Positions 42,621 to 46,475 of a stretch of DNA of 64,000 nucleotides are shown in pieces (position 1 is the stretch's first letter; each line of letters begins with the position of its first letter). The position numbers and the translations under genes are program-made. The notes below the pieces were generated by a model. The model had not been told where the DNA came from. It worked only from the letters and a program-made list of their open reading frames with translations, and searched no databases. This stretch comes from [Bacillus] selenitireducens MLS10 (GTDB lineage Bacteria; Bacillota; Bacilli; Bacillales; Salisediminibacteriaceae): NCBI RefSeq assembly GCF_000093085.1, contig NC_014219.1, positions 1,426,001 through 1,490,000 on the forward strand, in the 5' to 3' direction.

Positions 42621-45600
42621 TTACTCGTCATCATCTTCTCTTGTCGCATCATTGTTTGCATTTGAACCATTTGATTGGTTCTCATCGTTGGATGAAGAAA
42701 CATTTTCGTCGTTGCCGGAATTGGAGTCGTCATTGTTTGACTCATTATTGTCCGGGGTGTTATTCGGGTCATTTGTATTATTGTCCGGTTGATTGTTGTT
42801 TTGGTTATTATTTGAACTGTTGTTATTTTGGTTGTTGTTGTTTTGATCGTTATCTTCATTTTCATTTTGGTTATTGTTTTCATTGTCCGGTGTTTCTTCC
42901 TCAGGTTCTTCGTCCTCTTCCTCATCTTCAGGAGAAACATATTCACCAACGATAACAGGTTCTGAATAACTGGATTCACGCCCGGCAACATCAACAGCCG
43001 TAATGAAGTATGCCCCCTCCGGGCCACGGAATGTCCGGTCATCATCCCAAATGAAACTGTCGATGAGAGCAGGGTCTGCGTCTTCTGACGGACTGTGGTA
43101 AAGACGGTAGCCAATCACGTCGCTCTCAGGATGAGCACCCCAGGTTACCGAAGAGCCATCAGTAGAACCGGATGTGAGAACGTCTGGCGTTCGTCCGTTG
43201 TCCGGTGCATCAATATCCGGAACGAGATCATCCCAGTCATCAGGGAGATATTGTGTGATATCACCATCCGCAAACTCGAAATACTCCTCTTTGACGGATA
43301 CACCCGGTTTTGTGAATTCTTCAGGTGTTGTATCAAGAGCTTTGTAATGGTCGTCTTCCACGCGTACATACCGGACACGGGTCAGACTGTCATCTTCTTC
43401 AGTTGGTGCGTAGCGTGAATTAAACAGGTCGGTCTCGACAAGTCCTGCTTCACGGCACAGATCAGACGGCAATTTACCGGAGATGGCGCAGACGGACTGT
43501 GATACAATCCCGCCAGGTGATGATTTGGTTTCAGACGGTCCGATCAGGTCAGGATCAATTTCGTATGCGGCGTTCATCAGATCGGCCCAGAGCATCTGGT
43601 TACGGATGCTGTAACTGAAGCCGCTGCTGTGTGTCCTGTCCAATTGGGCGTTGTTATAGTAGCCAATCCAGCTTCCCATTGTAATATTAGGATTTATACC
43701 AATGAATAGCACGTCGCTGAACCCTTGAGACGTTCCGGTTTTCCCTGCCCAATCGCTGCTGAAGTCGAGATAGGAGGGGAGATTTCTTGCTGTACCATTA
43801 TTCGCATTAACAACGTCCCTCATAACATCGTACATCAGATAGCTGGTTTGAGGAGACAGTACTTCAATTTCTTGAGTTTCGTGTTCATACAAAACTTCTC
43901 CATTAGCATCGGTGATTTTTTCAATGATATACTGCTTGTTTCGGATTCCGTCATTGGCATAAGTTGAAAATGCACTCACCTGCTGATCGAGTGCGACATT
44001 GTCAGGTCCAAGAGGGAAACTGTGTCTTAGATTGTTACGGCTGTTATACTGATCAAGTCCGAAACGATCCAGCATCTCCCCGACTTCATCCCAATCCATT
44101 TCCGCGAACTCTCTCACTGCGGGTGTATTTCTTGATTGGATTAATGCTTCTCTGCTAGTAATTAGACCTCTGTAGTTAAGTCCATCAAAGTTCCTGACGT
44201 CCTGATCGGTGCCAGGATAAATGTAAGGAGTATCCGGAGCAAGAATCCCGGGCTGAAGCTGACCTGTTTCAAATGCAAACGGGTAAGTGGTCAGTGATTT
44301 CATGGTCGATCCGGTTGGTCGGCCGGAATATCCGGAATTTCGGATAGCTGTATTTGTTTGTCTTTCTTCAAAATCTCGTCCGGCTACGAAGCTGACGATG
44401 GCGCCGGTCTGGTTGTTAATTAAAACGGATGAAGCTTCTTCCGGCTGTGTTTCACCACCTTCTGGAGGACTTTTATCAGGCCCGTAATAATCAAATTCTC
44501 TGATGACCTCTTGCTGTGCGTCATAAATGTCTTTGTTGATCGTCGTATGAATCTGGTAGCCGTCCTGCATCATGGACCGTTCCGCCAATTCGGTGTATCG
44601 GTTCAGTGTCAGCTGTCGCTGATCGTCATCTTCAATGTCGTCAATGTTGATGTCATCCTGTTCGAGGAGGATATCCCGGATGACGGGAATCGCGTACTCT
44701 CTTGCAATTTCAAGTACCCAGGGATACTGCTGTCTGCTAGAAGGTTGACGATCCCGAAGTTCATTTTCAAGGTCGAAGTCAAGTGCCTGTTCACGCTCCT
44801 CTGCCGTGATGTATCCACTGGCGTACATCCGGTTTAACACGGTATTCATCCGGCTCAGACCGGAGCTCAGATCTTCTTTGACCTCTCCGCTCGATGTGAA
44901 AGGAGTATGTGCAAACGGGCTTTGTGGCAAACCGGCGATATAGGCTGCCTGAGAGAGTGACAGTTCACTGGCTGATACATCGAATAGGCCTCTTGCAGCG
45001 GCTTCAACACCCGCAACCTGACGGCCGTTCGAATTGCGTCCGAAAGGCACGATGTTCATGTAGGCTTCGAGAATATCTTCTTTGTCCAGATGGTGCTCCA
45101 GCCGCATGGCGTAAAGGATTTCAATGGCCTTTCTGTCATGCGTGACTTCACTCGTGAGAAGCTGGTTTTTGACGAGCTGCTGGGTGAGGGTGCTTCCCCC
45201 GGTCTGTGTGGCGGCATTGGAGAAATCCTGATACAAAGCACGGAACAACGCCTTTGGAACAACGCCCTCATGCTCAAAGAAATATTCATCTTCCGTGGCA
45301 ATCACTGCATTGATCAGGTGATCACTGATTTGATCGATGCTGACTTCCCGGCGCTCAAGCGGGCTCGGCAAATCACCGAGAAGAACTTCGTCTGCAAAAT
45401 AGACTTCCGTCGCTTCTTCATAGTTATAGATGCTTCGCTCCATCTCTTCAAAAGCCGGTATCGGTTCGTCCTTGACGAGCGATGCAAAATAGCCTGCAGC
45501 AGCTCCCCCGGCAAAGGCTCCCATGATGACAGTCAGGGTCAAAAAGAGCAGCACGAGGTTCCAGGCCACTTTTGTCGTGATCCGAACGCCTTTTATGACT

Positions 45601-45656
45601 ACTTGAGGCTCTTTCCTCGAAAAGAGCTGTTTGATTGTTGAGAAGAAATCATTCAT
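42621..45656 (-). CDS. Class A penicillin-binding protein with FN3 domain and Asn/Asp-rich tail
   Basis: A 1011-residue bifunctional peptidoglycan synthase. One membrane anchor (~residues 32-60) is followed by the GT51 transglycosylase with Glu122 in ATEDEYFFEHEG and QTGGSTLTQQLVKNQ, then the transpeptidase with S450-TMK, SRN (508-510) and KTG (639-641). Near residues 800-900 lies a fibronectin type III-like domain (SSVTWGAHPESDVIGYRLYHS...AYFITAVDVAGRES). The last ~102 residues are almost only Asn, Asp, Glu, Gln and Ser. ATG 45656 is the first plausible methionine but lacks a Shine-Dalgarno; TTG/GTG codons upstream in frame (45725, 45716) cross the hairpin left by the IscB element. The start is therefore uncertain. 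Confidence 0.88.
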   Translation of the reverse strand: MNDFFSTIKQLFSRKEPQVVIKGVRITTKVAWNLVLLFLTLTVIMGAFAGGAAAGYFASLVKDEPIPAFEEMERSIYNYEEATEVYFADEVLLGDLPSPLERREVSIDQISDHLINAVIATEDEYFFEHEGVVPKALFRALYQDFSNAATQTGGSTLTQQLVKNQLLTSEVTHDRKAIEILYAMRLEHHLDKEDILEAYMNIVPFGRNSNGRQVAGVEAAARGLFDVSASELSLSQAAYIAGLPQSPFAHTPFTSSGEVKEDLSSGLSRMNTVLNRMYASGYITAEEREQALDFDLENELRDRQPSSRQQYPWVLEIAREYAIPVIRDILLEQDDINIDDIEDDDQRQLTLNRYTELAERSMMQDGYQIHTTINKDIYDAQQEVIREFDYYGPDKSPPEGGETQPEEASSVLINNQTGAIVSFVAGRDFEERQTNTAIRNSGYSGRPTGSTMKSLTTYPFAFETGQLQPGILAPDTPYIYPGTDQDVRNFDGLNYRGLITSREALIQSRNTPAVREFAEMDWDEVGEMLDRFGLDQYNSRNNLRHSFPLGPDNVALDQQVSAFSTYANDGIRNKQYIIEKITDANGEVLYEHETQEIEVLSPQTSYLMYDVMRDVVNANNGTARNLPSYLDFSSDWAGKTGTSQGFSDVLFIGINPNITMGSWIGYYNNAQLDRTHSSGFSYSIRNQMLWADLMNAAYEIDPDLIGPSETKSSPGGIVSQSVCAISGKLPSDLCREAGLVETDLFNSRYAPTEEDDSLTRVRYVRVEDDHYKALDTTPEEFTKPGVSVKEEYFEFADGDITQYLPDDWDDLVPDIDAPDNGRTPDVLTSGSTDGSSVTWGAHPESDVIGYRLYHSPSEDADPALIDSFIWDDDRTFRGPEGAYFITAVDVAGRESSYSEPVIVGEYVSPEDEEEDEEPEEETPDNENNNQNENEDNDQNNNNQNNNSSNNNQNNNQPDNNTNDPNNTPDNNESNNDDSNSGNDENVSSSNDENQSNGSNANNDATREDDDE

Positions 45657-45662
45657 AAGATA

Positions 45663-45709
45663 CGTCCACAGGAACCCCCCGAATTCATTTGTGGGGAGGA
45701 ATGTGGACG
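45663..45709 (-). repeat. Hairpin resembling an IS200/IS605-type right end
   Basis: cgtccaca (45663-45670) and tgtggacg (45702-45709) pair perfectly, with an inner C-rich/G-rich pair (cccc with gggg). On the minus strand it overlaps the last codons and stop of the IscB remnant and ends seven bases before the penicillin-binding protein ATG. Subterminal imperfect palindromes with a CTCCCC...GGGG core are common at the ends of such elements; this identity is inferred. Confidence 0.5.
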
Positions 45710-46095
45710 GTTTCACTCCTTTCAAAAAGCCACGACGTGGCTTTTTCTTTTAACGCTAGTTTTTTATAACTTTTCCCTCTGCTGATAACTGTGCCATCAA
45801 GCAATCTCAAATCAAACGACCCTGTTTTTCGTCGTCCGAAAATGAAGCAGGGTTGCCCTTCGCAAAGCACCTTATCGAATAATTGGAAACCTTTCACGAA
45901 ACGTTCCGCTTTGTTTGCCTTGCGAATCCCGCCTTTTAAAATCGTCGTCTTGTGTAATTGCCGGTTGTTCTTGCGAACCTGCTTGTACTGATACGTGGCT
46001 TCGCTTGGTTTTGCCGTCGGATGACCACTGATACAACGGGCATCGACAGCATGAGATTTCTCTAAGCTGTGTTCTATGCGGGTATTCTTCGTCAA
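45685..46095 (-). pseudogene. iscB: Truncated IscB (RuvC-III and C-terminal region only)
   Basis: A 136-codon frame homologous to the C-terminal end of IscB, the RNA-guided nuclease ancestral to Cas9. EKSHAVDARCISGHP carries the RuvC-III H..DA motif (His15, Asp18). RKNNRQLHKTTILKGGIRK, VKGFQLFDKVLCEGQ, CFIFGRRKTGSFDLRLLDG and SYKKLALKEKA are the conserved C-terminal, TAM-contact-like region. RuvC-I, bridge helix, RuvC-II and HNH (about 280 residues) are missing, so it cannot be a nuclease. Yet a consensus AGGAGG (46106-46111) lies ten bases before a TTG start and a TGC-TATAAT lies upstream, so it may still be translated. It is classed as a remnant, possibly an internal deletion that joined leader to 3' end. 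Confidence 0.8.
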
Positions 46096-46124
46096 GTTTC
46101 GTCAACCTCCTAAAATTCATACAC

Positions 46125-46133
46125 ATTATAGCA
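46125..46133 (-). promoter_or_regulatory. Extended -10 promoter of the IscB remnant
   Basis: On the minus strand TGC-TATAAT (a perfect -10 with extension), with a start expected near 46118 and the ribosome binding site at 46111-46106. No clear -35. Confidence 0.5.
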
Positions 46134-46207: not shown

Positions 46208-46475
46208 TAACGTTTTGAATTAACGCATATGAAAATGTCGATGAGAAAGAATCAGTAGTCTGACTCTCCATGGCCAAGAGAACCGGTGGTGCTGCGAACC
46301 GGTCCACAGAGTGAGATGAATTACACCTTTTGAGACAGGCAAGGTGAAACTTGCCCGCCGGTAAATCCGGCGTTGTTTGAAGAGCGTATCTTTATTTGGG
46401 TACGTATCAAGGGTGGTACCGCGATCATTCGCCCCTTGCTTTCGATTGTCGGAAGCAAGGGGCGTTTTTTATTTT
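46208..46475 (+). ncRNA. Tyrosine T-box leader of tyrS
   Basis: A T-box riboswitch that reads uncharged tRNA-Tyr. The antiterminator T-box aagggtggtaccgcg is at 46409-46423. The likely specifier is TAC (Tyr) at 46322-46324 within gaattacacc, on the 3' side of stem I. The terminator is a 14-base-pair hairpin, 46430-46443 with 46451-46464, followed by six T and more T-rich sequence. Loss of charged tRNA-Tyr should favour antitermination and tyrS expression, as established for this class. Confidence 0.9.

Follow-up and report, generated by a model that had tools for sequence, protein, structure and literature searches.

What is a fragment of an IscB gene doing directly in front of a penicillin-binding protein gene, and to which of the two do the expression signals upstream of it belong? 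The fragment lies on the minus strand of the window, a 64 000-nucleotide stretch of the [Bacillus] selenitireducens MLS10 genome, and comprises 136 open codons (45685-46095; TTG start, TGA stop). The initial annotation, made from the letters alone, took it for a truncated IscB with a promoter, a ribosome-binding site and a start codon of its own, either a fresh remnant or a small protein that has been kept.

To identify the fragment, we searched the genome (G000; one contig of 3.59 Mb) for its homologues. Two full-length IscB homologues were found, at 3.06 Mb (L002, with a frame of 422 codons) and at 0.59 Mb (L003). From end to end, the fragment aligned with the C-terminal third of each (E = 4e-89 and 5e-86; 97% and 96% identity), which bears out a truncated IscB with an intact frame. 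At the DNA level the match runs from TGACGAAG, past the stop codon, to TATCTTATGAA, with 432 and 426 of 443 positions identical (98% identity to L002). RRXRR and HNH domains are present in the full copies, and a profile of full-length relatives matched solved IscB structures, including OgeuIscB, with E-values down to 1e-63. Because the Pfam and NCBIfam scans did not recognise the 136-residue piece, its identification was made through these full copies; phmmer of the piece against solved structures gave a marginal IscB match (E = 0.15). IscB model positions ~282-408, from just before RuvC-III to the C-terminus, are the sole part left in the window; RuvC-I, the bridge helix, RuvC-II and HNH are absent from the remnant, as the initial annotation had listed. 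Taken alone, the flagged piece is an ordinary deletion remnant.

The signals ascribed to the remnant are all present in the sequence: TGC-TATAAT (46133-46125), AGGAGG (46111-46106) and two copies of TTGACGAA. What did not hold was their assignment to IscB. Downstream lies pbp (42621-45656, minus strand), which encodes a class A penicillin-binding protein with transglycosylase and transpeptidase domains (PF00912 and PF00905; Pfam and NCBIfam scans of the protein from residue 2) and starts with ATGAAT at 45656, i.e. with the target motif of the element. The pbp start and leader are conserved in relatives. The closest congener (G002, locus L006) has the leader abutting the PBP start codon: its empty site can be written AGGAGGTTGACGATA/ATGAATGAA or AGGAGGTTGACGATA/ATGAATGAATTT, and the start follows directly (AGGAGGTTGACGATA/ATGAATGAATTTTTC). 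The order there is tyrS with its T-box on the other strand, then ...GTGCTATAATATGATTGAAATTTAGGAGGTTGACGATA, then ATGAATGAATTTTTC; in the window, the IscB remnant stands after the leader ...GTGCTATAATGTGTATGAATTTTAGGAGGTTGACGAAAC, and ATGAATGATTTCTTC is reached 439 bases further on. The motif TGCTATAAT occupies the place equivalent to TGC-TATAAT in relatives, and TGCTATAAT...AGGAGG stands right upstream of the PBP orthologue in the congener and in ~20 further relatives. It follows that the promoter, the ribosome-binding site and the first TTGACGA belong to the host. By this comparison, the apparent IscB leader is the displaced leader of pbp, with TGC-TATAAT (46125-46133, minus strand) as its extended -10, and AGGAGGTTGACGAAAC (46096-46111, minus strand) as its original ribosome-binding site, now severed from the start codon at 45656.

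The element was thus inserted exactly between the pbp ribosome-binding site and its ATGAA start codon. The piece as first delimited ends within a right-end hairpin (45709-45663), in the loop of which the stop TGA of the remnant falls; the element itself ends at 45657, immediately before the pbp ATG. The earlier observation that no guide RNA gene lies beside the remnant was correct. An Rfam search found the tyrS T-box (46232-46439, plus strand; 100.4 bits), which is upstream of tyrS and divergent from pbp, and no other Rfam RNA, and left-end/omega-RNA sequence is absent from the window. A practical caution follows: short ORFs left by such elements may pass for genes, with promoters that are actually the neighbour's.

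The form of the full element can be read from the other copies. In both L002 and L003, the left end starts GTCAACAACCC and makes up ~230 bases together with the omega-RNA, and the right end finishes ...GTGGACGTATCTT, or with CTC, directly before ATGAA; both structured ends and the ATGAA motif are present in each. The alignment of the three copies ends at CTT or CTC before ATGAA, and the window has the right end and ATGAA and lacks the left end. Left-end and right-end sequences each occur three times in the genome, the left-end/omega-RNA sequence only at the three other copies. One of these is a fourth, partial copy (L083:1260-2740; G000:C1:2931567 onwards), comprising the left end, the omega-RNA and iscB codons 1-164, after which it runs into an apparent IS66-type element; the genome yielded no 3' half to match it. 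As to a Y1 transposase that might act in trans, the genome has one match to Y1_Tnp, partial (positions 1-80 of 121) and distant from the window.

The intact L003 is placed before tsaD at a position equivalent to that of the window insertion. The empty tsaD site reads GTGGGGTTAAGAG/ATGAAAAAAG in relatives and GTGATGTGGGTGGGGTTAAGAG/ATGAAAAAAG in G002, and a search of G000 turned up no TsaD-like gene other than the tsaD by L003. The iscB frame of L003 has no stop before tsaD, giving an in-frame fusion of 776 codons (L003:658-2970; G000:C1:589757 onwards). The right-end hairpin of this copy is now a perfect 21-bp palindrome with the loop TTCA.

Compared with these copies, the window element has, since its insertion, lost its left end, its omega-RNA and all but the last third of iscB. 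A second locus shows a related event. In L084 (G313:C5:83319-83696), from another genus and on a contig of G313, which groups with the Exiguobacterium loci, the left end and omega-RNA run straight into iscB at the position where the window remnant begins, and 142 codons stay open; this copy lies between an SD sequence, TAAGGAG, and ATGAAAAAACGG of a lipoprotein-like gene. The joint lies within a 10-bp sequence common to the omega-RNA 3' end and the flanking part of iscB; in the element family of the window, 11 bp (CGAAGAATACC) are common to the omega-RNA end and the RuvC-III codons. The same cut has thus been made at least two times, probably with a repeat-mediated deletion as the first step. 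A two-step path is possible, in which the omega-RNA end was fused to RuvC-III as in L084 and the omega-RNA was then lost; the T before TGACGAAG fits this path, although it is one base only. The internal deletion proposed in the initial annotation had the right geometry, but the leader that it joins to the 3' part is the host gene's rather than that of iscB. A simple repeat deletion marked by the two TTGACGAA copies was rejected, since such an event leaves one copy. L084 does show an open short form in another genus; because of the 10-bp shared sequence at its junction, recurrent deletion explains L084 better than a conserved short protein does.

Differences between the remnant and the full copies are confined to a few codons, are mostly synonymous and in several cases arose in the full copies, which agrees with the description of a fresh remnant. 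When changes were polarised with a 75%-identical outgroup (L004), the remnant was seen to keep the outgroup state where the full copies had changed, e.g. CTA at codon 113, and V124F was the one clear coding change on the remnant's own branch. So few mutations have arisen since the deletion that selection on the protein could not be shown from them.

We gathered relatives from GTDB genomes, from 797 genomes of the same class and phylum and from viral contigs. The family was found in several phyla, and on phages and plasmids too. These yielded 58 right ends in which the inner motif and ATGA could be recognised, of which 54 were left after removal of duplicates. The ends share a common plan: AAAGGAG(G), 0-7 bases, an outer stem of 5-9 pairs enclosing TTCCTCC, an inner hairpin and TTTCC or TCTCC, and, after the 3' arm, usually 6-9 bases and then ATGAA. 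ATGAA often serves as the start codon of the following gene: an ORF of at least 50 codons was opened by 27 of 46 ATGAA ends, against 23.8% of 909 control ATGAA sites drawn from the flanks of the loci themselves (p = 4e-7; this and the p-values below are optimistic because related sequences are not independent). The downstream ORFs belong to known families with domains beginning near the ATG, such as aminotransferase class V (residue 5) and MFS (residue 15); TsaD, SCO1 and radical SAM are further families with a domain in the first residues. Among 22 start-type insertions, 14 have the native SD abutting the left end of the element, a feature that none of 9 other insertions shows (p = 0.0012); the overall figure, 14 of 31, compares with 4.2% of control ATGAA sites (p = 7e-12). 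The split between native SD and start is seen in, for example, ACTAAGGAGGACATCATTT/.../ATGAAATATGCA (L138) and ATTAAGGAGTAGATT/.../ATGAATAAAGTA (L150). By these arrangements, elements of the family insert between the SD and the start codon of their host genes.

The right ends also carry an SD of their own. With a score of 13 or more taken as a match, 80% of ends had an SD 5' of the outer stem; the rate was 3.3% for other iscB windows and 14% for shuffles. All three phases relative to the iscB frame are represented, and in 10 ends the SD lies beyond the iscB stop; this mixed phase and the SDs after the stop codon led us to reject the idea that the motif is kept merely as Glu-Arg codons at the IscB C-terminus. 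The SD-to-stem and stem-to-ATG distances are anticorrelated (Pearson -0.44, p = 0.003): the linear SD-to-ATG distance in the family is 50-64 nt, and the sum with the hairpin excluded is 10.2 ± 2.3 nt in the 43 ends with a strong SD.

The outer stem covaries. In this test the arms were placed by the inner motif and not by complementarity, and the MAFFT alignment of the right ends was not structural. Among 40 distinct 5' arms, pairing with the arm's own partner gave 5.38 of 6 Watson-Crick pairs versus 2.97 of 6 with the partners of others, the best of 2000 permutations reaching 3.67. Such covariation alone is no proof of an RNA function, because the right-end hairpin also serves transposition. 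Distant ISC relatives, mostly with a GTGA-type right flank, keep the hairpin and have an SD in 1 of 11 ends (the low-score list minus the partial ATGAA copies L051, L084 and L085). As these relatives mostly lack the SD and share the hairpin, an SD needed for transposition is disfavoured. Against a tie between the SD and start codons, the SD is also found in 15 of 21 non-start ends.

The right end of the window copy follows the same plan. It has an SD, AAAGGAG (45716-45722, minus strand), conserved 5' of the right-end stem in the ~80% of the 54 related ends noted above; a predicted hairpin (45663-45709, minus strand), with the outer stem CGTCCACA/TGTGGACG around TTCCTCCCC...GGGGGGTTCC; and a spacer, TATCTT (45657-45662, minus strand), which forms the last bases of the element, as set by the end of the three-copy alignment before ATGAA, the family's right-flank motif. 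The region was predicted to fold with a z-score of -2.9 and an outer-stem probability of 0.98. From AAAGGAG to ATG is 59 nt in linear sequence with the 47-nt hairpin between, or ~11 nt with the hairpin excluded. The SD of this copy, however, has a predicted unpaired probability of 0.06, against a family median of 0.40, and is mostly paired with early pbp codons. Just before it is AAAAAGCCACGTCGTGGCTTTTT (45724-45746, minus strand), a stem and a T-run that derives from V124F, where the full copies carry CTTGTTG; the terminator scan did not list it, but it is a possible weak terminator and could reduce transcription into pbp. Within the outer stem, next to its 5' arm, the conserved TTCCTCC (45701-45695 in the window) could pair with the element's own SD, and such pairing could allow an on/off switch between two folds.

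The explanation that we regard as probable is that the right end acts as a portable, split ribosome-binding site. An IscB-encoding ISC element of the IS200/IS605 type landed between the pbp SD and ATGAA, bringing with its right end an SD, a hairpin and a short spacer that runs up to the target ATGAA. On folding of the mRNA, the hairpin would be looped out and the element SD would come to lie ~10 nt from the start codon of the invaded gene, replacing the SD that the insertion had displaced. Insertions at start codons would thereby be tolerable. The host gene would come to depend on the element SD, and selection would then keep the right end while the rest decays; what matters in the remnant would be this end and not the protein. 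We infer three parts of this scheme: that ribosomes use the element SD, that tolerance is the benefit, and that the right end in the window has been retained selectively rather than through youth. On the last point, retention is also expected from recency alone. The enrichment at start codons may likewise reflect purifying selection rather than targeting.

The predicted pairing of the window SD keeps translational coupling as a serious, if unlikely, rival for this copy. Ribosomes would load at the host AGGAGG, which precedes the TTG by 10 nt, translate the 136-codon frame, open up the hairpin and start again at the pbp ATG, 28 nt beyond a stop codon in the hairpin loop to which the frame is open throughout; the short frame would be a leader ORF whose translation matters and whose product does not, and its translation would relieve the sequestration predicted for the SD. 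In the family, however, the position of the iscB stop varies widely, with extremes beyond the ATG and 76 nt upstream of it (the middle half spans 9-54 nt), and L003, as noted, lacks any stop before tsaD, whereas the SD-to-ATG spacing with the hairpin excluded is narrow (middle half 8.5-11.5 nt). Less probable again is a recent deletion derivative without function, with pbp expressed adequately by chance, or poorly and tolerated. The 98% DNA identity to L002 suits such recency, the 11-bp repeat between the omega-RNA end and the RuvC-III codons offers a simple deletion route, and the same cut was made in another genus at a 10-bp shared junction; yet this account speaks of the window copy only, and leaves unexplained the SD, hairpin and spacing conserved in dozens of unrelated ends and the native SD across the element.

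That the 136-residue protein has been kept, binding guide RNA or DNA and acting in trans, for instance by controlling the full-length copies, seems to us very improbable. The frame is intact, the same 3' piece is open in L084 (142 codons) and there are full-length copies in the genome to act upon. On the other side, the protein lacks the PLMP domain and the bridge helix, which hold the omega-RNA and guide, there is no omega-RNA gene at the locus, the protein shows no sign of selection, and the L084 frame has no SD before it and a junction that points to repeat-mediated deletion. The guide-RNA-binding protein raised in the initial annotation is accordingly not supported.

In returning to the portable ribosome-binding site, it is useful to separate what is known from what may be new. 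IscB elements, NTGA-type motifs and split ribosome-binding sites are already known. The full copies here resemble IscB/ISC elements of the IS200/IS605 superfamily (OgeuIscB, OrufIscB, and IsrB with its NTGA TAM) in having the omega-RNA 5' of iscB, RRXRR/RuvC and HNH domains, hairpin ends and insertion before an NTGA-type motif; DtIsrB prefers an NTGA motif (PMC9581776). The window copy differs in being reduced to the stretch from RuvC-III to the C-terminus and the right end. In T4 genes 38 and 25, mutation and probing showed that a hairpin shortens the SD-AUG distance from 22 to 5 and from 27 to 11 nt, respectively (PMC3014915). The likeness lies in a distant SD brought to a working distance by an intervening hairpin, which here is predicted; the T4 hairpins belong to the phage genes, whereas here the hairpin is longer (40-57 nt) and is part of a mobile-element end with its own SD. 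The ribosome-binding site of E. coli thrS is likewise split in two parts around a structure (PMC3936740). That site is not carried by a mobile element. In IStrons and similar elements, a selfish insertion in a gene is accommodated by preserving expression at the RNA level; the present case would differ in that there is no splicing and the start signal is replaced. The literature searched described neither an IscB/ISC right end with an SD nor an insertion that separates SD from start codon, and held no report joining IscB with start codons or ribosome-binding sites, although a prior description is possible.

With somewhat less confidence than we place in the portable site itself, we favour a wider reading: that an ATGAA-targeting IscB lineage specialises in start codons, that its right end restores translation and that the window remnant and relics like it are 5' leaders domesticated from transposon ends. 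If true, this would explain how an IscB element can survive after landing on an essential gene, tsaD for instance, and the preference for start codons would be niche construction, not accident. The ends of mobile elements would join the known sources of bacterial 5' leaders, and the family would supply many natural split ribosome-binding sites for the study of initiation across structured RNA.

Two further groups were seen among the relatives. Three with a GTGA motif (L099, L107 and L108) end at a GTG that opens a frame (233 codons in L099 and 169 in L107), a hint of the same strategy with GTG starts. On five viral contigs (L132, L175, L177, L163 and L180), a phage-borne iscB without a recognisable right end abuts the next gene's own ribosome-binding site; these look like stand-alone (homing-like) IscB.
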